From: a virus
IMG/VR virus record: IMGVR_UViG_3300022669_000001
Span: 1-29,135 of that record
Direction: 5' to 3' (one strand)
Length of the DNA: 29,135 nt
Shown one piece after another: positions 1,078-16,131 of this stretch. The notes below the pieces were generated by a model. That model ran no database searches, was not told the origin of the DNA, and saw only the letters and a list, made by a program, of their open reading frames with translations. The first letter of the stretch is position 1; each line of letters begins with the position of its first letter. The position numbers and the translations under genes are program-made.

Positions 1078-2232
1078 TTGAATGTTGATGTAAACGTTGT
1101 ATTTGAACATCTACTTGATAGCGAATCAAAGATAGTCGTAGAACAAGGCGGCACTCGATCTGGTAAGACTTTTAATATATTACTTTATATTATATTTCAC
1201 TATTGCCAAATAAACAAAGGCAAGACTATAACAATATGTAGAAAGACTTTTCCAGCTGTTCGTTCTTCAGTTATGCGTGACTTTATTGATATACTCAAAC
1301 AACATAATAAATATGATGAAGCTAATCACAATAAATCAAATAGTGAATATACTTTAGATGGTAATTTAGTTGAATTTATTTCAGTAGATCAACCTCAAAA
1401 GATTCGTGGTCGTAAACGTGAGTTTCTATTTATCAATGAAGCTAATGAGCTAGACTATGAAGATTGGCAGCAGCTTATATTTAGAACTACTGAAAAAGTT
1501 GTACTTGATTACAATCCTTCAGATGAGTATCACTGGATATATGACAAAGTATTAAATCGTGAAGATGTTGAGTTCTACAAGACTACATATCTAGATAATA
1601 AGTTTCTTGACAATAGCATAGTAAAAGAGATTGAAAGACTTAAACAAACTGATGAGCAATATTGGCAAATATATGGACTTGGTGAGAAAGGTGTTTCAAA
1701 AGCAACTATATTTAATTACAATGAAGTAAGTCACATTCCACACGATGCTGAACTTATAAGCTATGGCGCAGATGCTGGATATACAAATGATCCAAGTACA
1801 CTCGTAAGCGTTTACAAGAAAGATCATAATCTATATATCAAAGAACACTTATATAGAACTATGATGACAACTAAAGACTTGAGCGATCACTTTAAGCAAG
1901 AAGTAGAAAGAAGAAGTCCTATTTATTTTGATGCAGCCGAACCAAGATTAATTGATGAACTTCGCAGAATGGGTCACAATATACAACCTAGCTTAAAAGG
2001 TCGTGATAGTATCAATGCAGGTATAGACTTGCTAAAGCGTTTTAAGATACATATAACAAGCGAAAGCGACAACGCAATACAAGAGTTTAGAAACTATAAA
2101 TGGCAAGAGGATAGAAGCGGTAAATTAACGAACAAGCCTGTTGATAAGAACAATCATATAATTGATGCTGTCCGTTATGCTACGTATTCAATAATGAGCA
2201 GACCAAACTTTGGTAGATACGCAGTTCAATAA
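1078..2232 (+). CDS. terL: Terminase large subunit
   Basis: This is the DNA-packaging ATPase and nuclease (PBSX/Terminase_3-like), 384 residues. Walker A is GGTRSGKT at 24-31 and Walker B is FLFINEAN around 116-123. A nucleotide-coupling segment VVLDYNPS lies near 141-148. RNase H-like nuclease acidic residues are D232 (in GADAGYTNDPS), D284 (IYFDAAEP) and D362 (NHIIDAVRYA). The start must be the TTG at 1078: the in-frame TAA of the small subunit lies immediately upstream, and the first in-frame ATG (residue 66) would remove Walker A. It is slightly shorter than typical members (about 420) but retains all motifs. Confidence 0.95.
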   Translation: MNVDVNVVFEHLLDSESKIVVEQGGTRSGKTFNILLYIIFHYCQINKGKTITICRKTFPAVRSSVMRDFIDILKQHNKYDEANHNKSNSEYTLDGNLVEFISVDQPQKIRGRKREFLFINEANELDYEDWQQLIFRTTEKVVLDYNPSDEYHWIYDKVLNREDVEFYKTTYLDNKFLDNSIVKEIERLKQTDEQYWQIYGLGEKGVSKATIFNYNEVSHIPHDAELISYGADAGYTNDPSTLVSVYKKDHNLYIKEHLYRTMMTTKDLSDHFKQEVERRSPIYFDAAEPRLIDELRRMGHNIQPSLKGRDSINAGIDLLKRFKIHITSESDNAIQEFRNYKWQEDRSGKLTNKPVDKNNHIIDAVRYATYSIMSRPNFGRYAVQ

Positions 2233-2268: not shown

Positions 2269-2913
2269 ATGAAAGTTAAATTAAATATACCAACAAGCCT
2301 AAACGAAGTGACTTTAGCACAGTATCAAGAATTTGATAAATTGAACGCTAAAAGTGAATCAGAGCTTCAAATGAGAATGGTTGAAATATTCTGTAAAGTA
2401 TCAAAGCAAGTCGTGATGAGTATGAAAGCGAATGACATAATTGAGATATGCAATATTATCAATGTTATGTTTGACACTAAATATCAATTAATAAATACTT
2501 TCAAAGTAAACGGTCAAGAATATGGCTTTATCCCCAGTCTTGAAGATATGAGTTTTGGCGAATATGTCGATCTTGATACTTACATTGGTGATGACGATAA
2601 TCTGCATAGAGCTATGAATGTCTTATTTAGACCGATAGATATTAGAAAAGGTGGTAGATATATAATTGAAGACTACGATCCAGACAAAAACGAAAGAGCA
2701 AAAGATTTTCCTTTAGACGCTTGTTTAGGTGCAGTTGTTTTTTTTTATCATTTAGGCAAGGATTGTTCGACAGTTATGCTGAACTCTTTGAACAAAGCGA
2801 ACGAGGAGAACTTAGTGCAATATCTGGCTTCACAACCAAATGGGGCTGGTACAATTCAATCTATGGAATCGCTCAAGGGGATATTACAAAATTTGAACAT
2901 ATCACTAAATTAA
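2269..2913 (+). CDS. Tail assembly chaperone, short (unshifted) form
   Basis: The 214-residue product begins MKVKLNIPTSLNEVTLAQYQ. I read it as the gpG-like tail assembly chaperone, which holds the tape measure during tail assembly. A run of nine T (2738-2746) falls late in the gene, and a second well-formed frame continues in the -1 register to 2999, the classic G/GT arrangement. The unshifted product ends SLKGILQNLNISLN. The N-terminal family is one I associate with Bacteroidota phages and carries no catalytic motif. It sits before the neck genes and well upstream of the tape measure, whereas it is usually adjacent. The chaperone role is inferred from the frameshift architecture. Confidence 0.7.
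   Translation: MKVKLNIPTSLNEVTLAQYQEFDKLNAKSESELQMRMVEIFCKVSKQVVMSMKANDIIEICNIINVMFDTKYQLINTFKVNGQEYGFIPSLEDMSFGEYVDLDTYIGDDDNLHRAMNVLFRPIDIRKGGRYIIEDYDPDKNERAKDFPLDACLGAVVFFYHLGKDCSTVMLNSLNKANEENLVQYLASQPNGAGTIQSMESLKGILQNLNISLN
2739..2745 (+). promoter_or_regulatory. Probable -1 ribosomal frameshift slippery site T TTT TTT
   Basis: Codons in the upstream frame read GTT TTT TTT TAT, so T TTT TTT at 2739-2745 allows both ribosomal tRNAs to re-pair after a -1 slip. After the slip, reading continues TTA TCA TTT AGG into the frame that stays open to 2999. This fits the X XXY YYZ slippery rule. A downstream pseudoknot was not worked out. Confidence 0.7.
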
Positions 2914-2999
2914 ACGTTCACGAATGTTTAACATACTTGACATTCACAAAAGAAAAAAACGAAATAGAAGCTAGACAAATTAAAAACAAATTCAAATGA
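2745..2999 (+). CDS. Tail assembly chaperone frameshift extension (long form C-terminus)
   Basis: This -1 frame gives 84 residues after the slip, including SAISGFTTKWGWYNSIYGIA and ITKLNVHECLTYLTF. Joined to residues 1-159 of the upstream frame it makes a 243-residue long form (gpGT-like). Evidence that the frame is translated: it is open and protein-like for 250 bases, it has no plausible ATG start of its own, and its TGA (2997-2999) overlaps the ATG of the next gene (2996), as in translationally coupled genes. The GWY...LNVHE...YL pattern is one I recall from C-terminal parts of similar phage proteins. Confidence 0.7.
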   Translation, partial: LSFRQGLFDSYAELFEQSERGELSAISGFTTKWGWYNSIYGIAQGDITKFEHITKLNVHECLTYLTFTKEKNEIEARQIKNKFK

Positions 3000-3466
3000 G
3001 TAACACAGGAATAAGAGGATTTTATTTATTAACTGAAGCGATAGAAAATGCACTTTTAAATGACGTAAACGTGAACACTGTCACGACAGGCGACATCTAC
3101 GATATTGATTTGAAAAAACAGTCTATATTTCCGTTGTGTCACATAATAATAAATAATGTAAGTGCGAATGAATCTGTTTTAGTTTTTAATGTTTCTGTTT
3201 TATCAATGGACATAGTTGATGAGAGTAAAGAAAAAACAACTGATATATTCAGAGGTAATAATAATGAACAAGACGTCCTTAACACACAATTAGCTGTCTT
3301 AAATAGTTTAGTTCAAGAATTAAGAAAAGGCAATTTATATAATGACAAATATCAATTAGACGGCAACGCAAACTGTGAGCCTTTCTATGAGAGGTTTGAA
3401 AACAAACTAGCTGGTTGGACAGCAACTTTTGATGTGTTTGTAAATAATGACATCACGATATGTTAA
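2996..3466 (+). CDS. Putative tail terminator / tail-completion protein
   Basis: A 156-residue protein beginning MSNTGIRGFYLLTEAIENAL. Its ATG overlaps the stop of the frameshifted chaperone, and its own stop overlaps the next start. Size, position next to a gp10-like neck gene and alternating beta-rich stretches (HIIINNVSANESVLVFNVSV, and a C-terminal GWTATFDVFVNND) suit a tail terminator that caps the tube. No catalytic motif is visible. The assignment is by context and by resemblance to Bacteroidota phage neck-region proteins, not by a defining motif. Confidence 0.5.
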   Translation: MSNTGIRGFYLLTEAIENALLNDVNVNTVTTGDIYDIDLKKQSIFPLCHIIINNVSANESVLVFNVSVLSMDIVDESKEKTTDIFRGNNNEQDVLNTQLAVLNSLVQELRKGNLYNDKYQLDGNANCEPFYERFENKLAGWTATFDVFVNNDITIC

Positions 3467-4020
3467 ACAGTAAAGAAGTAGAAGAAGAACTTAATAAGTT
3501 CGCTAAATATGTGATACAACAATCAAGAAACAACTTGACTAAAGGTGCAACTCCATACGGCACTTACAATGACACTGGCAGCTTATATAACAGTCTAGGT
3601 CACTTTGTAGATAGAACAGCAAACGGTTACGCTCTTAATCTTGAAATGGAAGACTATGGTAAATTTAAAGATAGAGGTGTTAAAGGAAAAGACACTAGCA
3701 AGAAAGCACCAAATAGTCCGTATCGTTTTGGAAGTGGCACAGGACAAAAAGGTGGTTTAACTGATGCGATGGAAAAATATGTAAGACGTAAAGGTATACA
3801 ATTTAGAGAAAGAAAGAAGAAAGGTGAGAAAGGTAGATTTTTAAGCTACGATCAAACAGCTTTCATAATTGCTAGAAGTATATATAAAACAGGTATAAAA
3901 TCAAGTATGTTTTTTACAACTCCATTTTTAAGAGCTTTCAAAAGACTACCTGATGACTTGCTTAAAGCTTACTCTCTTGGAATAGATAGACAAATAAAGT
4001 TAACATTAACAAAGAAATAA
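3460..4020 (+). CDS. HK97 gp10-like neck / tail-completion protein (putative)
   Basis: A 186-residue basic protein. The N-terminal helix EEELNKFAKYVIQQSRNNLT is followed by TGSLYNSLGHFVDR, then a Lys/Arg/Gly-rich middle (KDRGVKGKDTSKKAPNSPYR) and a C-terminal part with MFFTTPFLRAFKRLPDDLL. An amphipathic N-terminal helix followed by a T-G-x-L-x-x-S motif is typical of gp10/minor tail-completion proteins at the head-tail joint. It overlaps the previous gene by 7 bases. The call is moderate and based on pattern and context. Confidence 0.5.
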   Translation: MLNSKEVEEELNKFAKYVIQQSRNNLTKGATPYGTYNDTGSLYNSLGHFVDRTANGYALNLEMEDYGKFKDRGVKGKDTSKKAPNSPYRFGSGTGQKGGLTDAMEKYVRRKGIQFRERKKKGEKGRFLSYDQTAFIIARSIYKTGIKSSMFFTTPFLRAFKRLPDDLLKAYSLGIDRQIKLTLTKK

Positions 4021-7735: not shown

Positions 7736-7872
7736 TAAAATTAATAATAGAGAGTTTAAAGTACGCAAACGGAGAAACTGAAAATTTGCGAATAGCACAA
7801 GGTAAATACAAACTACCTATGACATTGAAAGAGGGTTACAAAGCGTTAAAACAAGAGATAAAATGGCAATAG
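7732..7872 (+). CDS. Small hypothetical protein between tail protein and tape measure
   Basis: A 46-residue frame beginning MIKLIIESLKYANGETENLR. It starts in an ATGA overlap with the stop of the 866-residue gene and overlaps the tape-measure start by 10 bases, so it fills an otherwise empty 127-base gap. Lysine-rich, with no transmembrane segment. Double overlap is good evidence that it is translated. Function unknown; possibly a tail assembly helper. Confidence 0.6.
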   Translation: MIKLIIESLKYANGETENLRIAQGKYKLPMTLKEGYKALKQEIKWQ

Positions 7873-9758
7873 AAAAAGTAATTGAGATTAAATTATCGGC
7901 ACAAGAAGCTGAAAAGAATTTAAAAGCAATAAATAAAACTTTAGAAGAACAAAGAGAGATTCTTATTCTTTTAGAGAAAGAACTTCTTGATGTTCAAGAC
8001 GCTCAAAACAAAACATCTAAAACAAATCTAGCAGCACAAAAACAACTTACGACACAATCTAATCACTTAAAATCTTCAATTAGAGATCAAAAGCTTGGTT
8101 TAAAAAGTCTTAATATTGAAAGACGTGAAGCGGCAGATGTTTTAGCAGACTTAAATAAAGGTAGCAAAGACAATACAAACATAATACGAGGTGTCGATAA
8201 GCTCACAGGTGGATATGCTACTAAAATAATAAAACTTAAAAAAGGGTTTCTTTCTTCTATTAAAGTTGTAAAAGGATTCGTTGCTGGTTTAAGTGGTGTT
8301 AAAAAGGCATTGATAGCTACAGGTATCGGCGCTCTTGTAGTCGGTCTTGGTCTTGTAGTTGCTTATTGGGAAGATATAATCGCTTTATTTGATGACGGCT
8401 CTAAGAAGCTTCAAGAACAAGCTGATGAGCATAGAAAAAACATATCTTTAAGTGAAGATCAATTAGCTTTACTTAATAATCAAGAAAAGATACTTAAATT
8501 ACAAGGTAAAAGCACCAAAGAAGTCGTAGAACAAAAAAAGAAAGTTCTAGTATTACAACAAGAAGAAAACAGACTGCTTCTTGAAAACTTAAAAACTCAA
8601 TTACTAAGAGAACAACAACAACAAACAGAATTAACTTTCTGGGAAAAGACAAAAGTTGCCGTTGCAAATGCTGTTGGTGGCTTAGGTGCAGCCGCTGTGG
8701 CGAATGCTAAAACTTTCAAGAAAACAGCTGAAGAAATTGAAAAACTTGATGACTTAGAAAAGCAAATTCAAGACACAAAAATAAACGGTCAAAAGCTCAC
8801 ACTTTCACTTCTTCAGCTTGATGAAAAACAAAAGCAAAAGAAAGTTAAAGACGCCAAAGACACTAAACAGTTAGAAAAAGAAAAGCAAGAAGCACTTGAG
8901 AGAATAAGAAAAGGTGAAATTGATACTGAAGATGAAAGACGTGCTGAAGAACTATATCAAGTACAAGAACAATATAAAAAGCTAATTAAAGAAGCTGATA
9001 AGTACAATCAAAGCACTACTGAATTAATAGAGGCGCAAGGCGTTAAAGAACAAAAATTAAAAGATAAGTTCGCACAGCAAGACAAAGAAAAGAAACTTAA
9101 AGAACAAGAAAAACTTATTGAAGAACTTGAACTGAAGAAAGAAGATGAAGAACTAAGTTTTGATGAACAAAGACAGTTAATTGCTGATCGTGAACAGCTA
9201 TTGATAGAAGATAAGACGCTTACTGATGAACAAAGACTTCAACTTGAAGGGCAATTTACAGATGCAAAGATAAAACTAGCTGAAGCTGAAGCGGCAGCTA
9301 AAGATAAAACACTAGGTGAAACAGCTGATGTTCTACAAAAATTTAGTGGCATTGCCGGTGAAGAAACTGCGGCAGGCAAAGCTTTAGGAATTGCTAGTGC
9401 TACAATTAACACTTATAGAGGTGTTTCAGATGCTTTAGCGGCAACAACTGTAACGCCGTTTGAAACTGCATTAAAATTCGCAAACGCTGGAGCTATATTG
9501 GCATCTGGTCTTCAAAACGTTCAAAAAATTGTAAGTGTAAAAGTCCCCAGAACTAGCAGCGGCGGTGGTGCAGCAGCAACGGGAGGATCTGCACCAGCTC
9601 CACCAAGTTTCAATGTAGTTGGCGCAAGTGAAACAAGTGTTTTAGCTGATACAGTCGCAGAGCAAACAAACGAACCAGTACAAGCTTATGTAGTTTCAAA
9701 CGATGTAACAACAGCACAAAGTTTAGAAAACAATATAGTTGAGGGTGCAACTTTATAA
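7863..9758 (+). CDS. Tail tape measure protein
   Basis: A 631-residue protein dominated by Lys/Glu/Gln-rich heptad patterns predicting long coiled coils (residues about 10-100 and 180-480). A hydrophobic glycine-rich stretch lies at about 138-168 (VKKALIATGIGALVVGLGLV), followed by YWEDIIALF. An Ala/Gly-rich region near 480-590 includes GGGAAATGGSAPAPP. This coiled-coil plus hydrophobic-segment layout is the hallmark of tape measures, which set tail length and help DNA pass the membrane. At roughly 1.5 angstrom per residue it would predict a tail near 95 nm (rule of thumb, not measured). It ends the tail operon. Confidence 0.85.
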   Translation: MAIEKVIEIKLSAQEAEKNLKAINKTLEEQREILILLEKELLDVQDAQNKTSKTNLAAQKQLTTQSNHLKSSIRDQKLGLKSLNIERREAADVLADLNKGSKDNTNIIRGVDKLTGGYATKIIKLKKGFLSSIKVVKGFVAGLSGVKKALIATGIGALVVGLGLVVAYWEDIIALFDDGSKKLQEQADEHRKNISLSEDQLALLNNQEKILKLQGKSTKEVVEQKKKVLVLQQEENRLLLENLKTQLLREQQQQTELTFWEKTKVAVANAVGGLGAAAVANAKTFKKTAEEIEKLDDLEKQIQDTKINGQKLTLSLLQLDEKQKQKKVKDAKDTKQLEKEKQEALERIRKGEIDTEDERRAEELYQVQEQYKKLIKEADKYNQSTTELIEAQGVKEQKLKDKFAQQDKEKKLKEQEKLIEELELKKEDEELSFDEQRQLIADREQLLIEDKTLTDEQRLQLEGQFTDAKIKLAEAEAAAKDKTLGETADVLQKFSGIAGEETAAGKALGIASATINTYRGVSDALAATTVTPFETALKFANAGAILASGLQNVQKIVSVKVPRTSSGGGAAATGGSAPAPPSFNVVGASETSVLADTVAEQTNEPVQAYVVSNDVTTAQSLENNIVEGATL

Positions 9759-9761
9759 AAA

Positions 9762-9793
9762 ACAAAATAAATAAAAAAACTTTATATATAATT
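9762..9793 (+). promoter_or_regulatory. Late promoter-like 32-bp element, copy 3 (before head module)
   Basis: ACAAAATA (9762-9769), 10 bases of A/T, CTTTATATATAATT (9780-9793), directly followed by the ATG at 9794. It fills the whole 35-base gap after the tape measure. Spacing and sequence match copies 1, 2, 4 and 5. Confidence 0.6.
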
Positions 9794-10963
9794 ATGAGAA
9801 TAGTCGAATTGATATTAGATGAAGATCAAGAGCTTGGAATTGAAGCCATAAGTGTGGTTGAGAGCCCGGCAATTGAAGAAGATTTTGTCGCTTTAAAAAG
9901 TCAAGAGTTTAAACTTGCTGAAGTTGATAAAGAGCGTAGAATTTTAATGGGTGCTTTATTGATACCAAACAAGCCTATTTACAGACGTAATGGTGAAGAT
10001 GAGTACTATATATATTTTTCAAAAGATACTGTCTTAAAAGCTAGTCAAATGTATTTGATGAATAGCAAACAAAATAACGCTACACTTGAGCATCAATACG
10101 AAATAAACGGACTTAGTTTAGTGGAATCTTGGATAGTTGAAGATAAAGTTCACGATAAGAGCGTTAAGTTTGGAATGGACTTACCTTTAGGAACTTGGGT
10201 CGGTAGTGTTAAAGTCAATAATGATAAGATCTGGAATGAGTTCGTGAAGACTGGCAAGGTAAAAGGTTTTAGTATTGAAGGATATTTTGCTGATAAAATG
10301 GAACGGCCGAACGATGCAACTATAAAAGATGAACTTTCTTCTATTGAAGATGAAGAAGCAGAGTATTTATTAAATCAAGTAAAGTCAATTTTAAAGAATG
10401 AAGAAGTTGATCTTAAAACTTACGCTGATTATCCAGATGCTGTTAAGAACAATGCAAAGAAAGGAATTGAACTTAACGAGAAACAAGACAATAAATGCGC
10501 CACTCAAGTCGGAAAAGTTAGGGCTAGACAATTAGCACAAGGCAAAGGACTTAGTAAAGAAACGATAAAAAGAATGTACTCTTATCTATCAAGAGCTTCA
10601 GAATACTACAATGAAAAAGATAACGAAGCTTGTGGTACTATTTCTTATTTGCTCTGGGGTGGAAAAGCTGGTTTACGTTGGTCACAATCTAAATTAAAAG
10701 AATTAGAATTGTCGTCTGAAATTATCAATGAAACAATGGCAATAATTGATGGGCGTTTAGCGTACTCAACAAAAGAAGAAGCTGTAAAGGCGGCTAAAGA
10801 CATAGGCTGTGAAAAATATCACACACACGAATTTGAAGATAAAACTTGGTATATGCCTTGCGAAAGTCATAGTTTGAAATCACCTTGTTGGGACGGATAC
10901 GAACAAAAAGGAACTAAAATATTAGACGGAAAGACAGTGCCTAATTGCGTAAAAATAAAATAA
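9794..10963 (+). CDS. XkdF-like prohead serine protease with extra C-terminal domains
   Basis: A 389-residue protein. Residues 1-175 match the XkdF/Peptidase_S78_2 type of head maturation protease, which cleaves scaffold and capsid during prohead maturation. The probable catalytic His is H100 (TLEHQY) and the Ser is S160 (VKGFSIEG), with LVESWIV between them. Residues about 205-300 form a separate conserved-looking unit (KKGIELNEK, CATQVGKVRARQLAQGKG, YLLWGGKAGLRW). The last 75 residues (YHTHEFEDKTWYMPC, GYEQKG, VPNCVKIK) form a third, Cys/His/Trp-rich unit. Neither extension has a function I know. The next gene starts inside its TAA. Confidence 0.75.
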   Translation: MRIVELILDEDQELGIEAISVVESPAIEEDFVALKSQEFKLAEVDKERRILMGALLIPNKPIYRRNGEDEYYIYFSKDTVLKASQMYLMNSKQNNATLEHQYEINGLSLVESWIVEDKVHDKSVKFGMDLPLGTWVGSVKVNNDKIWNEFVKTGKVKGFSIEGYFADKMERPNDATIKDELSSIEDEEAEYLLNQVKSILKNEEVDLKTYADYPDAVKNNAKKGIELNEKQDNKCATQVGKVRARQLAQGKGLSKETIKRMYSYLSRASEYYNEKDNEACGTISYLLWGGKAGLRWSQSKLKELELSSEIINETMAIIDGRLAYSTKEEAVKAAKDIGCEKYHTHEFEDKTWYMPCESHSLKSPCWDGYEQKGTKILDGKTVPNCVKIK

Positions 10964-11178
10964 TGAAACAATTTGAAACGCCTAGCAAAACAAGTCCTAA
11001 AGGTGGCAGAAAAGGTTGTCTTTGTAAAGATAATACTTACTCAACTAAATGCTGTGACGGAACTTTAAGAGCCCAAGGAATTGGTAGTACGTCTTCTATT
11101 GGTGAAAGAATAGAGTTTTTAACACAAGAAGACACTTATTTAATACTTCAAGAAAATAATCAAAAAATATTAATATAA
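10963..11178 (+). CDS. Small cysteine-rich protein of unknown function
   Basis: I start this at the ATG at 10963, inside the previous TAA (TAATG), rather than at an in-frame TTG 18 bases earlier. The product has 71 residues. The N-terminal half holds GGRKGCLCKDNTYSTKCCDG: four Cys in C-x-C and CC pairs, possibly a metal-binding knot. The rest is polar and beta-like. It lies between the head protease and a fibre-like protein, so a minor virion role is possible. Small proteins with this motif recur in Bacteroidota phages. Confidence 0.6.
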   Translation: MKQFETPSKTSPKGGRKGCLCKDNTYSTKCCDGTLRAQGIGSTSSIGERIEFLTQEDTYLILQENNQKILI

Positions 11179-11645
11179 TGCCAAATTTAAAAATAAGTCA
11201 ATTACCCGAATTAAGTGTTTTATCACTTACAGATGAGTTCGCAGTCGTTAATAATAGCCAGACAAAAAGAGTTACTTTTAATAATCTTCAAAAAGAAGTT
11301 TTAAATTATTTAGTTCCTACAAACTTAACGGTTACAGCTGATAATAATGTTGATTTGGATTCAGAAACTTACAATCATTCTGAAGTAATTAGATTAACTT
11401 GGTCGGGTACAGCTGGAAATATGACTTTAACTCTGCCAGATGCGACTTCTACAAACAACATAAATAGATTAATGAGATTTATATCCGATTCAACATTTAA
11501 CACAAATACAAGAGTTTATTTAACTCCAGCTTCAGGTCAAACAATAGACGGCAGTTCTAATTATTACGAAATAAATAAAGAATTTGAGGGTATTCAATTA
11601 TGGAGTGATGGCGTAGAATGGTTCATAATTCAGAAAAAAGCATAA
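11178..11645 (+). CDS. Fibre-like or capsid decoration protein (putative)
   Basis: A 155-residue protein whose N-terminus (LKISQLPELSVLSLTDEFAV, then KRVTFNNL) matches a pattern common at the virion-anchoring ends of phage fibres and head decorations. A beta-rich C-terminal part follows (LTLPDATSTNN, TIDGSSNYYEI, LWSDGVEWFIIQ) with the look of a short beta-prism tip. It shares its start base with the preceding stop codon. Location between protease and scaffold suggests attachment to the head rather than the tail tip, but this is inference. Confidence 0.5.
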   Translation: MPNLKISQLPELSVLSLTDEFAVVNNSQTKRVTFNNLQKEVLNYLVPTNLTVTADNNVDLDSETYNHSEVIRLTWSGTAGNMTLTLPDATSTNNINRLMRFISDSTFNTNTRVYLTPASGQTIDGSSNYYEINKEFEGIQLWSDGVEWFIIQKKA

Positions 11646-11652
11646 CGAAAAT

Positions 11653-11684
11653 ACAAAATAAATTAAACTAAATTATATATTAAT
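11653..11684 (+). promoter_or_regulatory. Late promoter-like 32-bp element, copy 4 (before scaffold and capsid)
   Basis: ACAAAATA (11653-11660), 10 bases, AATTATATATTAAT (11671-11684), followed directly by the ATG at 11685. It would drive the scaffold and major capsid genes up to the terminator at 13265. Its 14-mer differs from the CTTTATATATTAAT of copy 5 only in the first two bases. Confidence 0.6.
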
Positions 11685-12287
11685 ATGAAGTCAAACAATA
11701 TGATTGAAAAAATCAAAGATGTGTTAAGCTTGAATGAAGAAGTAAAGCTTGAACAAATTAAACTGGAAAACGGAACTGTGATTGAAGCTGAATCTTTTGA
11801 AAAAGGGAAAGAAGTTTTTATTGTAACAGATGACGAAAAAGTGGCAATGCCAGTAGGCGAGTATATTCTTGAAGATTCTAAATTATTAGTAATTGAAGAA
11901 GAAGGATTAATTGCTGATGTTCGTGAAGTTTCTGATGAAGTACCTAGTGAGGAATCTGAAGAAGAAATGGAAGAAGAACTAGCTGAAGAAGCCGACGTTG
12001 CAGATTGGAAAGGTATGGAAAAAAGAATTAAAAATCTTGAAGACGCTATTGCAGACATTAAAGCTGAAGAAGACTTAAAAGAAGAACTATCAGCTATCGA
12101 AATGGGTAACAACTTAACTGTTGAGCTTTCAAAAGAAGTACCAACTGAAGTTGAAGCTGTATTAAGCGAGCCAAGTGCCGAGCCTATCGTTTCAAATCCA
12201 GAGTCTTTCAAAGAGCTATCAAAATTCAAGATAGGTTCAAACAGAAAAGCAAATACAATGGATAGAGTATTCGCAAATTTAAAATAA
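11685..12287 (+). CDS. Head scaffolding protein (putative)
   Basis: A 200-residue, strongly acidic protein with a Glu-dense centre (EEMEEELAEEADVADW), a coiled-coil-like segment (KNLEDAIADIKAEEDLKEEL) and a basic C-terminal tail (FKIGSNRKANTMDRVFANLK). That polarity, together with its place between the protease and the major capsid gene, is typical of scaffolds, whose basic tail binds the capsid protein and which the protease later removes. The N-terminal half (ENGTVIEAESFEKGKEVFI) is beta-like. A minus-strand open frame over the same bases is a Ser-rich mirror of this gene and is not real. Confidence 0.7.
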   Translation: MKSNNMIEKIKDVLSLNEEVKLEQIKLENGTVIEAESFEKGKEVFIVTDDEKVAMPVGEYILEDSKLLVIEEEGLIADVREVSDEVPSEESEEEMEEELAEEADVADWKGMEKRIKNLEDAIADIKAEEDLKEELSAIEMGNNLTVELSKEVPTEVEAVLSEPSAEPIVSNPESFKELSKFKIGSNRKANTMDRVFANLK

Positions 12288-12317
12288 ATAATAAATAACA
12301 ACTAAAAAAAAATTCAA

Positions 12318-13247
12318 ATGAGTTTAGCAATTACAACAACCTATGCTGGTGAATTTTCAGGAAAATACATCGCAGCCGCTTTGCTTTCTGGGGATACTCT
12401 AGCAAACAATGAGATTACAATCTTACCAAACGTGAGATATAAGTCTGTTCTACAAAAAGCATCAACTGACAATATTGTACGTGACGCTGATTGTAACTTT
12501 CAAACAGGACAAGGAACTTTAACTTTAACTGAAGCTGTATTAACAGCCGAGGAATTTCAAGTAAACCTTGAATTGTGTAAAAAAGAGCTTCACCAATCGT
12601 GGCAAGCTTTAGAGATGGGATATTCAGCTTTCGCAGAGATTCCAGCTTCTTTCTCTGATTTCGTACTTGGTCACGTAGCGGCTAAAGTAGCAGACAAAAC
12701 AGAAAAAAACATCTGGCAAGGTGTTAATGCAAACACTGGAGAGTTTGACGGTCTTGCAACTTTATTAGCAGCTGATGGAAATTTACCTGCAGCTCAAGAC
12801 TTAGTTGCTGCCGCTGTTGATCCTGCTACAATTATAGCAGAGCTTGGTCGTGTAGCCGATGCGATTCCTACTGCTGTTTACGGCAAGGACGATTTAAGAA
12901 TTTACGTATCTTCAGACATCGCCAGAGCTTACACAAGAGCTTTAGGTGGGTTTGCTGCTGCAGGAGTTGGAGCAAATGGTTTCGACAACAAAGGAACTAA
13001 TCAAGTTCTAGGTGGTTTATACTTTGATGGAATTCAATTAGTAGTTGCAAAAGGTATGGCTGACGGAACTATGATTGCAGCTGAAAAATCAAACCTTTTC
13101 TTCGGAACAGGATTGCTTTCAGATCAGCAAGAAGTTCGTGTTATCGATATGAGCGAAACCGACGGAAGTCAAAATATTCGAGTAGTGATGAGATTTACCG
13201 CTGGCGTCCAGTACGCACAGGTAACCGACATTGTTCTTTACTCTTAA
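12318..13247 (+). CDS. Major capsid protein (HK97-like)
   Basis: A 309-residue protein in the size range of HK97-fold capsids, following the scaffold and preceding a strong terminator. Typical regions: an N-terminal arm (MSLAITTTYAGEFSGKYI), a spine-like helix stretch (DFVLGHVAAKVADKTEKNIW), an Ala-rich A-domain (VYGKDDLRIYVSSDIARAYT) and a C-terminal beta stretch (RVVMRFTAGVQYAQVTDIVL). Base and codon use look richer in G/C than the surrounding genes, as expected for a very highly expressed gene. No 32-bp element lies immediately upstream, so it is probably read through from the scaffold promoter. Confidence 0.8.
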   Translation: MSLAITTTYAGEFSGKYIAAALLSGDTLANNEITILPNVRYKSVLQKASTDNIVRDADCNFQTGQGTLTLTEAVLTAEEFQVNLELCKKELHQSWQALEMGYSAFAEIPASFSDFVLGHVAAKVADKTEKNIWQGVNANTGEFDGLATLLAADGNLPAAQDLVAAAVDPATIIAELGRVADAIPTAVYGKDDLRIYVSSDIARAYTRALGGFAAAGVGANGFDNKGTNQVLGGLYFDGIQLVVAKGMADGTMIAAEKSNLFFGTGLLSDQQEVRVIDMSETDGSQNIRVVMRFTAGVQYAQVTDIVLYS

Positions 13248-13264
13248 TAATTAATTAATCATTG

Positions 13265-13297
13265 AAAAAGGGTGGGTAAAATAACTCGCCCTTTTTT
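13265..13297 (+). terminator. Rho-independent terminator after the major capsid gene
   Basis: A 13-bp stem pairs AAAAAGGGTGGGT (13265-13277) with ACTCGCCCTTTTT (13284-13296), including two G-U pairs, around a 6-base loop, with the U-run built into the 3' arm. It begins 17 bases after the capsid stop. Confidence 0.85.
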
Positions 13298-13317
13298 ATT
13301 TAAAAAACTTTAAACCT

Positions 13318-13845
13318 ATGGGATGCCTAATAACTAGCGGCCGTAAAGTACCTTGCAAATCAGCGGTGGGTGGTATTAAAACTATCTATTTCGCAGATTA
13401 CGGAACTTTAGGAACTGCGACAATCGTAGCTGGAGAAATTACAGCTGTTTCTGGAACGCCAACGTGGTTTCAGTTTGACGTAAAAGGTAACAGTTCAATG
13501 GAAACTGCTATCACTTCAAGCCGAGAAAACGGAACGACTTTCTATGATACTACACTAAATATGACTTTGACATTTCAAGACAAAGCTACACAAGAAGAAC
13601 TTAAACTAATCGCTCACGCACGTCCGCACGTTGCCGTTGAAGATTATAACGGAAACTTCTTTTTAGTAGGACTTGAAAATGGTGGCGATGTAAATGGCGG
13701 GACAATAGTCACCGGAGCTGCAATGGGGGATTTAACAGGTTACACTTTAACGGTGAATGCTCAAGAAACTGCACCACCTTTCTTTGTAACATCAACTGTT
13801 ATAACTGACGATGCTTCAGCGGTTCAAATTGACCCAACTGCATAA
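13318..13845 (+). CDS. Major tail tube protein (putative)
   Basis: A 175-residue protein starting MGCLITSGRKVPCKSAVGGI. It is beta-rich with motifs (KTIYFADYGTLGT, FDVKGNSSMETAITSSRENG, HVAVEDYNGNFFLVGLENGG) I recognise from tail-tube-type proteins of Bacteroidota siphophages. It is flanked by terminators on both sides and has capsid-like, more G/C-rich codon use, consistent with a second very abundant virion protein. Its own promoter is not obvious; the gap of 20 bases from the upstream terminator holds only an AT-rich stretch. It sits in the head block, away from the rest of the tail genes. Confidence 0.7.
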   Translation: MGCLITSGRKVPCKSAVGGIKTIYFADYGTLGTATIVAGEITAVSGTPTWFQFDVKGNSSMETAITSSRENGTTFYDTTLNMTLTFQDKATQEELKLIAHARPHVAVEDYNGNFFLVGLENGGDVNGGTIVTGAAMGDLTGYTLTVNAQETAPPFFVTSTVITDDASAVQIDPTA

Positions 13846-13867
13846 TTAGTACTTTTACTTATAAATT

Positions 13868-13897
13868 AGGGTTATCTTAACGGGTAACCCTTTTTTT
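13868..13897 (+). terminator. Rho-independent terminator after the tail tube gene
   Basis: The stem pairs AGGGTTATCT (13868-13877) with GGGTAACCCT (13882-13891), including two G-U pairs, with a 4-base loop, followed by T through 13897. It lies 23 bases after the tail-tube stop and 14 bases before late element copy 5. Confidence 0.85.
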
Positions 13898-13910
13898 ATT
13901 TCTACACTAT

Positions 13911-13942
13911 ACAAAATATTTATTTTTTCTTTATATATTAAT
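13911..13942 (+). promoter_or_regulatory. Late promoter-like 32-bp element, copy 5 (before portal block)
   Basis: ACAAAATA (13911-13918), 10 T-rich bases, CTTTATATATTAAT (13929-13942), directly followed by the ATG at 13943. It lies immediately downstream of a terminator, where a new transcript would have to start. The spacer here is T-rich whereas in the other copies it is A-rich, so the two flanking blocks rather than general A-richness are what is shared. Confidence 0.65.
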
Positions 13943-14314
13943 ATGAAGTTAATCACGACAAGCGGAATTAAATTATTTAGGGTAATTCCAAGAGAATTTA
14001 TTACTGGGGACATTGATGTAATTATTATAAATGAAAGCACAAATGTAACTTTGCCAACACAAACTGTTCAATCTACAATTCAAGGAAACTTTATACAATT
14101 CACTTGTAATTTTGGAACTTTAGTTGAAGGAAACTTTTACACGATGGATATAAAATACAACGACATTGCGAATCAAGAAACTAGAGTTATATATAAAGAT
14201 AAGATTTTTTGCACTAATCAAGCTGTTAATCAAGAAAAAGGTATTTATTACAGCATAAACAAAGATGAATTTGTTAGTGAAGATAGTTTTGATAATGAAT
14301 ACATAATAATATAA
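13943..14314 (+). CDS. Small structural-region protein of unknown function
   Basis: A 123-residue, beta-rich protein (SGIKLFRVIPREFITGDIDV, FIQFTCNFGTLVEGNFYTM) ending EDSFDNEYIII. It lies directly behind late element copy 5 and 2 bases before the portal gene. Regularly spaced strands and the FxxLVEGxFY stretch suggest an immunoglobulin-like fold of a minor virion protein. I recall similar small proteins beside portal genes in Bacteroidota phages. A minus-strand frame over the same bases is a mirror. Confidence 0.55.
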   Translation: MKLITTSGIKLFRVIPREFITGDIDVIIINESTNVTLPTQTVQSTIQGNFIQFTCNFGTLVEGNFYTMDIKYNDIANQETRVIYKDKIFCTNQAVNQEKGIYYSINKDEFVSEDSFDNEYIII

Positions 14315-14316
14315 AT

Positions 14317-16131
14317 ATGAATGATTTAAGAATAGTGAACTTGAGTACTTACACAAGTCCTGATATTATTGAAAAATCAAGTAAGGAATACGTTTCCTAT
14401 GGGGCCGATAATAATTATTTTCAGTATTTAATTGATAGATACAACGGCAGCCCAACAAACAATGCGATTATAAACGGAATAAGTCAAATGATTTATGGAC
14501 GTGGACTAGATGCGTTAAATTCAAATAAAAAGCCAGGGCAATACGCACAAATGATTTCTTTGTTTAAAAAAGATATGGTTCGAAAAGTGTGTTATGATCT
14601 TAAATTAATGGGTCAATGTGCTATACAAGTAATTTATTCTAAAGATAGAAAAACAATCGCACAAGTTGAACATATTCCAGTTGAGAATTTAAGAGCTGAA
14701 AAATGCAACGACAAAGGAGAGATAGAAGCATATTATTACTCGGATAATTGGACTAAAGTTAAAAATATAAGTAGTACTCTTAAAATACCAGCTTTCGGTT
14801 TCAGTAAAGAAAATATTGAGATTATATATGTAAAACCTTACAGAGCTGGTTATAAATATTATTCCAGCCCGGATTATGCAGGAGGACTTCAATATGCAGA
14901 GCTGGAGCAAGAGATAAGCAACTACCACCTCAACAATATATTAAATGGTCTGGCGCCTAGTATGTTGATTAATTTTAACAACGGAACTCCAAATGCAGAG
15001 GAGCGTCAAATGTTAGAAAACAGAATTTTAGAGAAATTTTCTGGGAGTTCAGCGGCGGGTAAGTTCATTTTAGCCTTTAATGATAATCCAGAAAGTGCTG
15101 CAACTATTGAGCCTATACAATTAAGCGATGCTCACAATCAATATCAGTTTTTAAGTGATGAAAGTTCTAAAAAAGTTATGGTTGCTCACAGAGTGGTTTC
15201 ACCTATGCTTTTAGGAATTAAAGATAATTCTGGACTTGGAAATAATGCTGATGAATTACGCACAGCTTCGACACTAATGGATAACACGGTTATAAGACCG
15301 TTTCAGACACTTTTAATAGATGCCTTTGATACTATACTAGCGTACAATCAAATATCGCTTAAATTGTACTTTAAAACGCTTCAGCCGTTAGAGTTTACAG
15401 ACTTAGAGAATGTTCAAGATAGTGAAACAATGGAAGAAGAAACAGGTGTCAAGTTAAGTGAAGAATCTAGATCTTTAATTGAAAAACGTTTAAAAGACAT
15501 TGGTCAAGATGAAAGCGAATTATTAGCTGATTATGACTTAGTTCACGAAGCTGAAGTTGATTATGACTTAGAAGACGAACTTGATGAGATTGTAAACGAA
15601 TTAAATAAACCAAAAGATGACACTTTATTATCTAAAGTTTTAAAATTTGCAAAAGTTGGAAAAGCTACGCCTTACAGAGATAGCGAACAAGATGGAACTT
15701 CTAAGAAAAAAGGTCAAGAAGATGTTGAGTTTTTAGTTAGATATAAATACACAAAAGCACCTGGTAAATCAAAGACTGGGGAACAAAGAGATTTCTGTTT
15801 TGAAATGGAAAAAGCAAATAAAGTTTATCGAAAAGAAGATGTACTTGAAATGAAAAGCTTAGAATTGAATCCTGGCTTCGGAAAAGATGGAGTTGAAGAA
15901 TATTCGATTTGGTTATACAAAGGCGGCCCACGTTGTGAACATCGCTGGACTCGTAAGCTTTACGCAAGAAAAGACGGTCGTAGTTTGGGAAATGCAATAA
16001 GCACAACTCAAGCAATAAAGAGAGGATTCAGACCAGAATCAAATAACAGAAAAGTATCAATAGCGCCAAAGAATATGGAATACGCTGGTTACACAAAAGA
16101 ATATTGGGATAAAATGGGATTTGAAAATTAA
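14317..16131 (+). CDS. Portal protein with unusual C-terminal domain
   Basis: A 604-residue protein. Residues about 20-390 have the order expected of a portal, the 12-fold DNA channel at the head vertex: SYGADNNYFQYLIDRYNGSP, NAIINGISQMIYG, LMGQCAIQVIYSKD, then the long helical region QFLSDESSKKVMVAHRVVSP and LRTASTLMDN. Residues about 455-604 are extra: RYKYTKAP, KANKVYRKEDV, YSIWLYKGGPRCEHRWTRKL, YAGYTKEYWDKMGF. That domain has a C-x-H and Trp/Tyr-rich pattern and may be a fused minor-head domain; its function is unknown. The portal follows the capsid and tail-tube genes instead of preceding them. Confidence 0.8.
   Translation: MNDLRIVNLSTYTSPDIIEKSSKEYVSYGADNNYFQYLIDRYNGSPTNNAIINGISQMIYGRGLDALNSNKKPGQYAQMISLFKKDMVRKVCYDLKLMGQCAIQVIYSKDRKTIAQVEHIPVENLRAEKCNDKGEIEAYYYSDNWTKVKNISSTLKIPAFGFSKENIEIIYVKPYRAGYKYYSSPDYAGGLQYAELEQEISNYHLNNILNGLAPSMLINFNNGTPNAEERQMLENRILEKFSGSSAAGKFILAFNDNPESAATIEPIQLSDAHNQYQFLSDESSKKVMVAHRVVSPMLLGIKDNSGLGNNADELRTASTLMDNTVIRPFQTLLIDAFDTILAYNQISLKLYFKTLQPLEFTDLENVQDSETMEEETGVKLSEESRSLIEKRLKDIGQDESELLADYDLVHEAEVDYDLEDELDEIVNELNKPKDDTLLSKVLKFAKVGKATPYRDSEQDGTSKKKGQEDVEFLVRYKYTKAPGKSKTGEQRDFCFEMEKANKVYRKEDVLEMKSLELNPGFGKDGVEEYSIWLYKGGPRCEHRWTRKLYARKDGRSLGNAISTTQAIKRGFRPESNNRKVSIAPKNMEYAGYTKEYWDKMGFEN

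Follow-up and report, generated by a model that had tools for sequence, protein, structure and literature searches.

Tail assembly chaperones of the G/GT type are encoded by open reading frames (ORFs) joined by a −1 frameshift, and the resulting products share an N terminus, one of them having an extended C terminus. These chaperones bind the tape measure and tail tube proteins, are needed for tails and are absent from the virion. Their genes usually belong to the structural operon and precede the tape measure gene; direct adjacency is typical but not defining. A stimulator of ribosomal −1 frameshifting, such as a stem-loop or a pseudoknot, is common but not obligatory. To our knowledge, all of the characterised chaperone frameshifts that can be cited are ribosomal. 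In phage lambda, the short product gpG is accompanied by the longer −1 product gpGT, following a fixed-ratio logic (PMC5009743). Among the P2 relatives checked, the slip motifs vary (T_TTT_TTG, T_TTT_TTC and G_GGA_AAG), with 2 to 16 codons between slip and stop. For the ribosome, U_UUU_UUY is among the efficient slip motifs in E. coli (PMC4066793). Transcriptional slippage on runs of nine A or nine T has been described for Shigella mxiE, Thermus dnaX and IS elements (PMC3711429, PMC1088944, PMC5009743), where it restores the frame in a fraction of the mRNAs. Programmed transcriptional realignment has a published threshold of Tn with n > 8 (PMC3711429), and in bacterial genomes avoidance of A/T runs is usually seen at a length of nine (PMC1088944). 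No paper was found in the literature on a phage tail chaperone made by transcriptional slippage or on the present frameshift in Bacteroidota phages.

The DNA analysed here (the window) is a metagenome-derived virus record of 29,135 bases from a phage of marine flavobacteria. A frame-0 ORF on the plus strand (2269 to 2913) encodes a putative short, G-like product of 214 aa, which consists of an N-terminal domain of about 158 aa and a 55-codon frame-0-specific tail. Within it, a run of nine T (T9; 2738 to 2746, plus strand) is read as GTT TTT TTT TAT, the GTT codon starting at 2737, and contains T_TTT_TTT in register. It is the sole T run of at least 8 inside any gene of the window. Beyond the slip lies an open −1 frame of 84 codons (2745 to 2996) that ends with TGA (2997 to 2999), which overlaps the ATG of the next ORF (2996) as ATGA. 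This extension (2745 to 2999, plus strand) contains the "KWGWY" domain, has no ATG of its own and would form the T-like part of a long product, predicted to have about 242 aa in total. The heptamer register, the length and ATGA ending of the −1 frame and its lack of an ATG were all as reported in the first-pass annotation, and the predicted junction peptide, VVFF-LSFR, agrees with the VVFFLSFR given there. When the frame-0 protein was recoded synonymously 20,000 times with the codon usage of the window, the −1 frame was open over the overlap in just 0.17% of the recodings; in the converse recoding, frame 0 was open, given the −1 protein, in 2.7% of trials. This indicates that the frame arrangement exceeds chance. 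The other T8 runs of the window (19807, 20450 and 21587) are intergenic, and an A9 run at 12304 is also located between genes.

The locus is very probably one gene that gives two proteins sharing the first 158 to 159 residues or so, with a minority of expression shifting to −1 at T9. Most expression would stay in frame 0 and yield the 214-aa product, and the minority that shifts would yield the product of about 242 aa ending in the KWGWY domain. The short and long forms are likely to act as a tail assembly chaperone pair in a fixed ratio. For the shift itself, there is about an even chance that RNA polymerase slips on T9 (A9 in the template), adding one U or losing two in some transcripts; ordinary translation of the altered transcripts would then enter the −1 frame. 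Polymerase and ribosome may both contribute to the slip. Taken as a whole, with RNA polymerase chiefly responsible for the slip, this account receives half of our confidence.

The two-product design is already known, and the slip site and the long dual-coded overlap are the variant. Lambda gpG/gpGT is alike in its short product and −1-extended product with a C-terminal domain, but its slip site, G_GGA_AAG, leaves 5 codons to the stop, whereas here T9 is followed by a dual-coded overlap of 55 codons. The lambda gene has the major tail protein gene on one side and the tape measure gene on the other, whereas the present gene is next to the terminase large subunit gene (TerL); there is no detectable homology between the lambda gene and the present one. 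P2 gpE/E+E' (phrog_166) shares a T-rich slip site (T_TTT_TTG), the −1 frame and, for some members of the present family, a weak phrog_166 match. It differs in having a T6 + G run, an overlap of 6 codons and a gene located directly before the tape measure gene, and the hhalign comparison was negative. The overlap of 55 to 84 dual-coded codons far exceeds the 2 to 16 codons of the lambda and P2 cases checked. The mxiE, dnaX and IS systems have the nine-A/T run in common with the present site, but they are cellular genes or IS elements, whereas the present gene belongs to a phage.

Separate tblastn searches with the two frames converged on Nonlabens phages P12024L and P12024S, each of which has the two overlapping frames. 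P12024L gp40-gp41 (phrog_32199) is the same gene pair, with a CTT TTT TTT TAT site and TerL as its neighbour; the difference is that the pair is annotated in both phages as two separate hypothetical genes, with the frameshift unannotated. Scans of IMG/VR gave 221 distinct loci, including the window and the two isolated Nonlabens phages, and the T run and the −1 domain were kept in all of them. All 221 loci fit the pattern nTT TTT TTT T.., their runs comprising 9 or 10 T when counting starts at the second base of the first codon. A second search was restricted to the N-terminal 100 residues of a divergent prophage homologue as the query, so that the slip site itself was not selected for. It yielded 72 distinct loci, and all of the 70 that reach the slip site, with identity down to 27%, had 9 to 11 T. 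Every contig among them that was long enough also encoded a comparable −1 product, in most cases with a KWGWY/KWGWF-like motif. Run length across the 221 + 70 loci was thus 9, 10 or 11 and never below 9. The −1 domain hardly varies in length (80 to 92 codons in most loci); the frame-0 tail, by contrast, ranges from 16 to 84 codons, and the −1 domain is thus the conserved partner.

Genome scans around a Winogradskyella metagenome-assembled genome (MAG) found few copies, in 3 of 299 genomes of the family, 2 of 395 of the phylum and 2 of 396 of the order, and the clade therefore seems to consist largely of free phage. One Winogradskyella MAG has two family members on short contigs, about 54% and 69% identical to the frame-0 protein of the window, and these perhaps represent two co-binned phages. 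Flavobacterium phage 6H (KC959568) encodes a distant structural relative of the frame-0 protein on the minus strand (10352 to 10927; Foldseek 5.9e-4; hmmsearch E 0.002), the ORF of which ends shortly after T TTT TTC. The unannotated region from 10048 to 10351 of phage 6H contains a protein-like −1-frame stretch, but with a TAG just past the slip.

Dual constraint across homologues, which the first-pass annotation had named as a check, was found in the overlap (2747 to 2913, plus strand). Upstream of the slip, the entropy at the three frame-0 codon positions was 0.60/0.37/1.25, and in the overlap it was 0.29/0.52/0.53. The decrease from 1.25 to 0.53 indicates that the third position is not free in the overlap. 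Downstream, where only the −1 frame is coding, the entropy in the −1 register was 0.21/0.16/0.75. The mean pairwise identity in the overlap was 58.6% for frame 0 and 63.9% for frame −1. Conservation of this kind in the two amino acid sequences indicates that both frames are under selection over the 55-codon overlap.

These homologues bear on three simpler explanations of the frame pair. A sequencing or assembly error, with a true run of 8 or 10 T and a plain single ORF, would be in keeping with the error-prone nature of homopolymers and with the metagenomic origin of the record. It is refuted by the identical frame relation in the 221 + 70 loci, which come from many samples and include two isolated phages, and by the conservation of both frames over 55 codons; its probability is practically nil, bearing out the initial judgement that an error was less likely. 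Replication slippage on the T run might instead toggle the fusion by phase variation, since T9 can be hypermutable (PMC1088944, PMC3711429). However, no in-frame DNA fusion of the two frames by insertion or deletion of T was found among the loci compared, and the few T10 and T11 loci keep the −1 relation, so phase variation was rejected as extremely improbable. The separate CDS annotation in P12024L/S would agree with a −1 ORF that is an overlapping gene of its own, translated by re-initiation and without fusion. Against this, none of 106 homologues had an ATG in the open part of the −1 frame before the frame-0 stop, and in a wider set a −1-frame ATG was present in only 2 of 210, located 29 nt after the slip codon begins. 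In addition, no start is conserved in the −1 frame, which becomes conserved from the T run onward (FF-L-x-F-R). A separate start was therefore also rejected and is considered highly unlikely.

Judged by its homologues, the two-product gene is genuine, deeply conserved and unannotated. No annotation of the long form was found anywhere; the isolated phages list two hypothetical genes, and the family is without an assigned function. The programmed −1 frame transition proposed initially is strongly supported by the run and the −1 domain in the 221 + 70 loci and by the constraint on both frames; the initial reading has to be qualified in its chaperone label, its slipping agent and its view of the gene placement.

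The same two products would be obtained by programmed −1 ribosomal slippage on U_UUU_UUU, in which the tandem tRNA-Phe in the P and A sites would re-pair, as in lambda G/GT and P2 E/E'. The prior favours the ribosome because every citable characterised chaperone frameshift is of this kind, P2 using T_TTT_TTG. A perfect T_TTT_TTT heptamer is present in the frame-0 register in all site-reaching loci, and in E. coli U_UUU_UUU needs no stimulator to slip (PMC4066793). However, any T9 run holds T_TTT_TTT in register, and the register can therefore not separate polymerase from ribosome. A run of at least nine T, the form expected for transcriptional realignment, is likewise present at the junction in all site-reaching loci. 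Although 7 T would suffice for the ribosome, the run is never shorter than 9.

Codon choice at the slip site was compared among 71 lineages obtained by dereplication at 85% nucleotide identity. TTC was found at neither slip Phe codon (0 of 71 lineages, no change on the tree), compared with 9 to 18 TTC and 8 to 15 changes on the tree in four control Phe columns of the same gene. At the last wobble, replacing T by C would leave the protein unchanged in frame 0 and, in most lineages, in frame −1 as well (TTA/CTA, TTG/CTG); the ribosomal model permits this TTC, but it was never seen. The 5' T was lost (GGT, AAT) in four lineages by three inferred events, and all four carry an extra 3' T (TTG, TTT), which occurs in 2 of the 67 other lineages. 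The run is thereby restored to at least 9 despite the loss of the 5' T, and such compensation of a register shift by T gain counts against the ribosomal model.

In 793 other genes of these phages, no T run of at least 9 was found against about 10 expected, and A runs of at least 9 were depleted fivefold (8 against 44 to 45 expected). T7 runs, too, are underrepresented to some extent in the other genes, which speaks for ribosomal slippage, but avoidance elsewhere tracks length and not register: in-register 7-mers were avoided no more than out-of-register ones (T 7-mers, 0.65 in the ribosomal register vs 0.38 out of register; A 7-mers, 0.98 vs 0.80). RNAalifold, run for stems on 28 sequences, gave 8 weak pairs about 80 nt downstream of the slip, none compensatory, and thus no conserved stem that would count for the ribosomal model. 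The run never below 9 T, the absence of TTC, the compensated shifts, the length-dependent avoidance and the lack of a covarying stem together suggest that homopolymer length is selected, and it seems to be this length, not the ribosomal heptamer, that is conserved.

Several of these observations have other possible readings. First-base changes in the other Leu columns inside the overlap numbered only 3 to 5, which makes zero wobble changes only moderately surprising, and dual coding may account for part of the wobble freeze. Ribosomal slippage could also increase with a longer U run, the avoidance of long runs may reflect replication slippage, and the compensation evidence comes from about three events. 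Despite the prior, we lean toward RNA polymerase, at about an even probability, because the T run of at least 9 that seems to be needed equals the reported length for transcriptional slippage; ribosomal slippage comes a close second, somewhat short of even. Of the initial reading of ribosomal slippage at T_TTT_TTT, the in-register heptamer was found everywhere, but the data fit a requirement for at least 9 T and are at least equally compatible with polymerase. As a broader proposition, a large, uncharacterised clade of Bacteroidota phages might set the short-to-long ratio of its chaperone by RNA polymerase slippage on a run that must hold at least 9 T and not by the ribosome, which we regard as a tentative idea slightly more doubtful than the polymerase reading itself. 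If polymerase slips, the same tail-assembly ratio would have evolved with two different decoding machines, and a textbook ribosomal frameshift would have been replaced by a transcriptional one.

The assignment as a tail chaperone is a probable one. At the sequence level, two ORFs are joined by a −1 shift with a common N terminus and an extended C terminus, and a short and a longer −1 product from one gene of a structural operon, as in lambda G/GT and P2 E/E+E', suggest that the gene probably works like a G/GT tail assembly chaperone; membership of that family is not claimed. All 52 aligned frame-0 proteins matched phrog_32199, a family of unknown function, that of the window with 9.4e-20. Weak matches to phrog_166, which picks out P2 gene E (3.6e-9), were obtained for the N-terminal 60 residues or so of 16 of the 52 homologues (best E 3.7e-5) and are the sole homology link in favour of the chaperone label given initially. 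The profile-profile and fold comparisons did not extend it: hhalign against an alignment of eleven P2-type gpE proteins was negative (probability 0.1%), and Pfam and NCBIfam had no credible match for the putative chaperone. AlphaFold2 with the 52-row alignment gave a frame-0 model with a pLDDT of 79.6 (residues 189 to 214 at low confidence), compared with a useless 38.8 from the single sequence. With this model, Foldseek found nothing in the PDB at E ≤ 0.001, and the best hits of VIA-align 2 (Z 2.7 and 2.0) were unrelated proteins. In a viral structure library, many uncharacterised phage proteins were matched, and matches to annotated chaperones were weak.

A real two-product gene for some other assembly factor would be consistent with this lack of a fold, Pfam or hhalign match to known chaperones and with a position not adjacent to the tape measure gene. 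It is made unlikely by the two-product −1 design, the operon shared with structural genes 5' of the tape measure gene, the weak phrog_166 link and the fact that no rival chaperone candidate was noticed near the tape measure gene. Recognition as a tail chaperone would identify a protein that probably serves assembly in many Bacteroidota phages, marine and freshwater.

The candidate chaperone gene directly follows TerL (1078 to 2232, plus strand; Pfam Terminase_3, 2.8e-23, and synteny) and lies 4.9 kb upstream of, and on the same strand as, the candidate tape measure gene (7863 to 9758, plus strand; phrog_24676 "tail length tape measure protein", E 1.7e-7). The placement about 5 kb from the tape measure gene had been called unusual, but it is normal for the family: TerL is immediately upstream in 165 of the 182 loci with room, and a homologue of the ORF at 2996 is immediately downstream in all 186 loci with room. 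This downstream ORF (2996 to 3466, plus strand), whose ATG overlaps the −1 stop, matched phrog_30964, and the next one (3460 to 4020, plus strand) matched phrog_29822. The second may be a neck or tail-completion gene; the genes that were earlier labelled as neck genes matched only PHROGs of unknown function.

The order of the structural genes in the window (7863 to 16131) is unusual, with the portal last: the tape measure candidate is followed by a head maturation protease-like protein (9794), a probable capsid protein (12318), a 175-aa protein (13318) and the portal (14317). The 175-aa protein may be the tail tube. The ORF at 9794 to 10963 has a head maturation protease-like N terminus (phrog_34096), and its C-terminal part matches pieces of several unrelated PHROGs.
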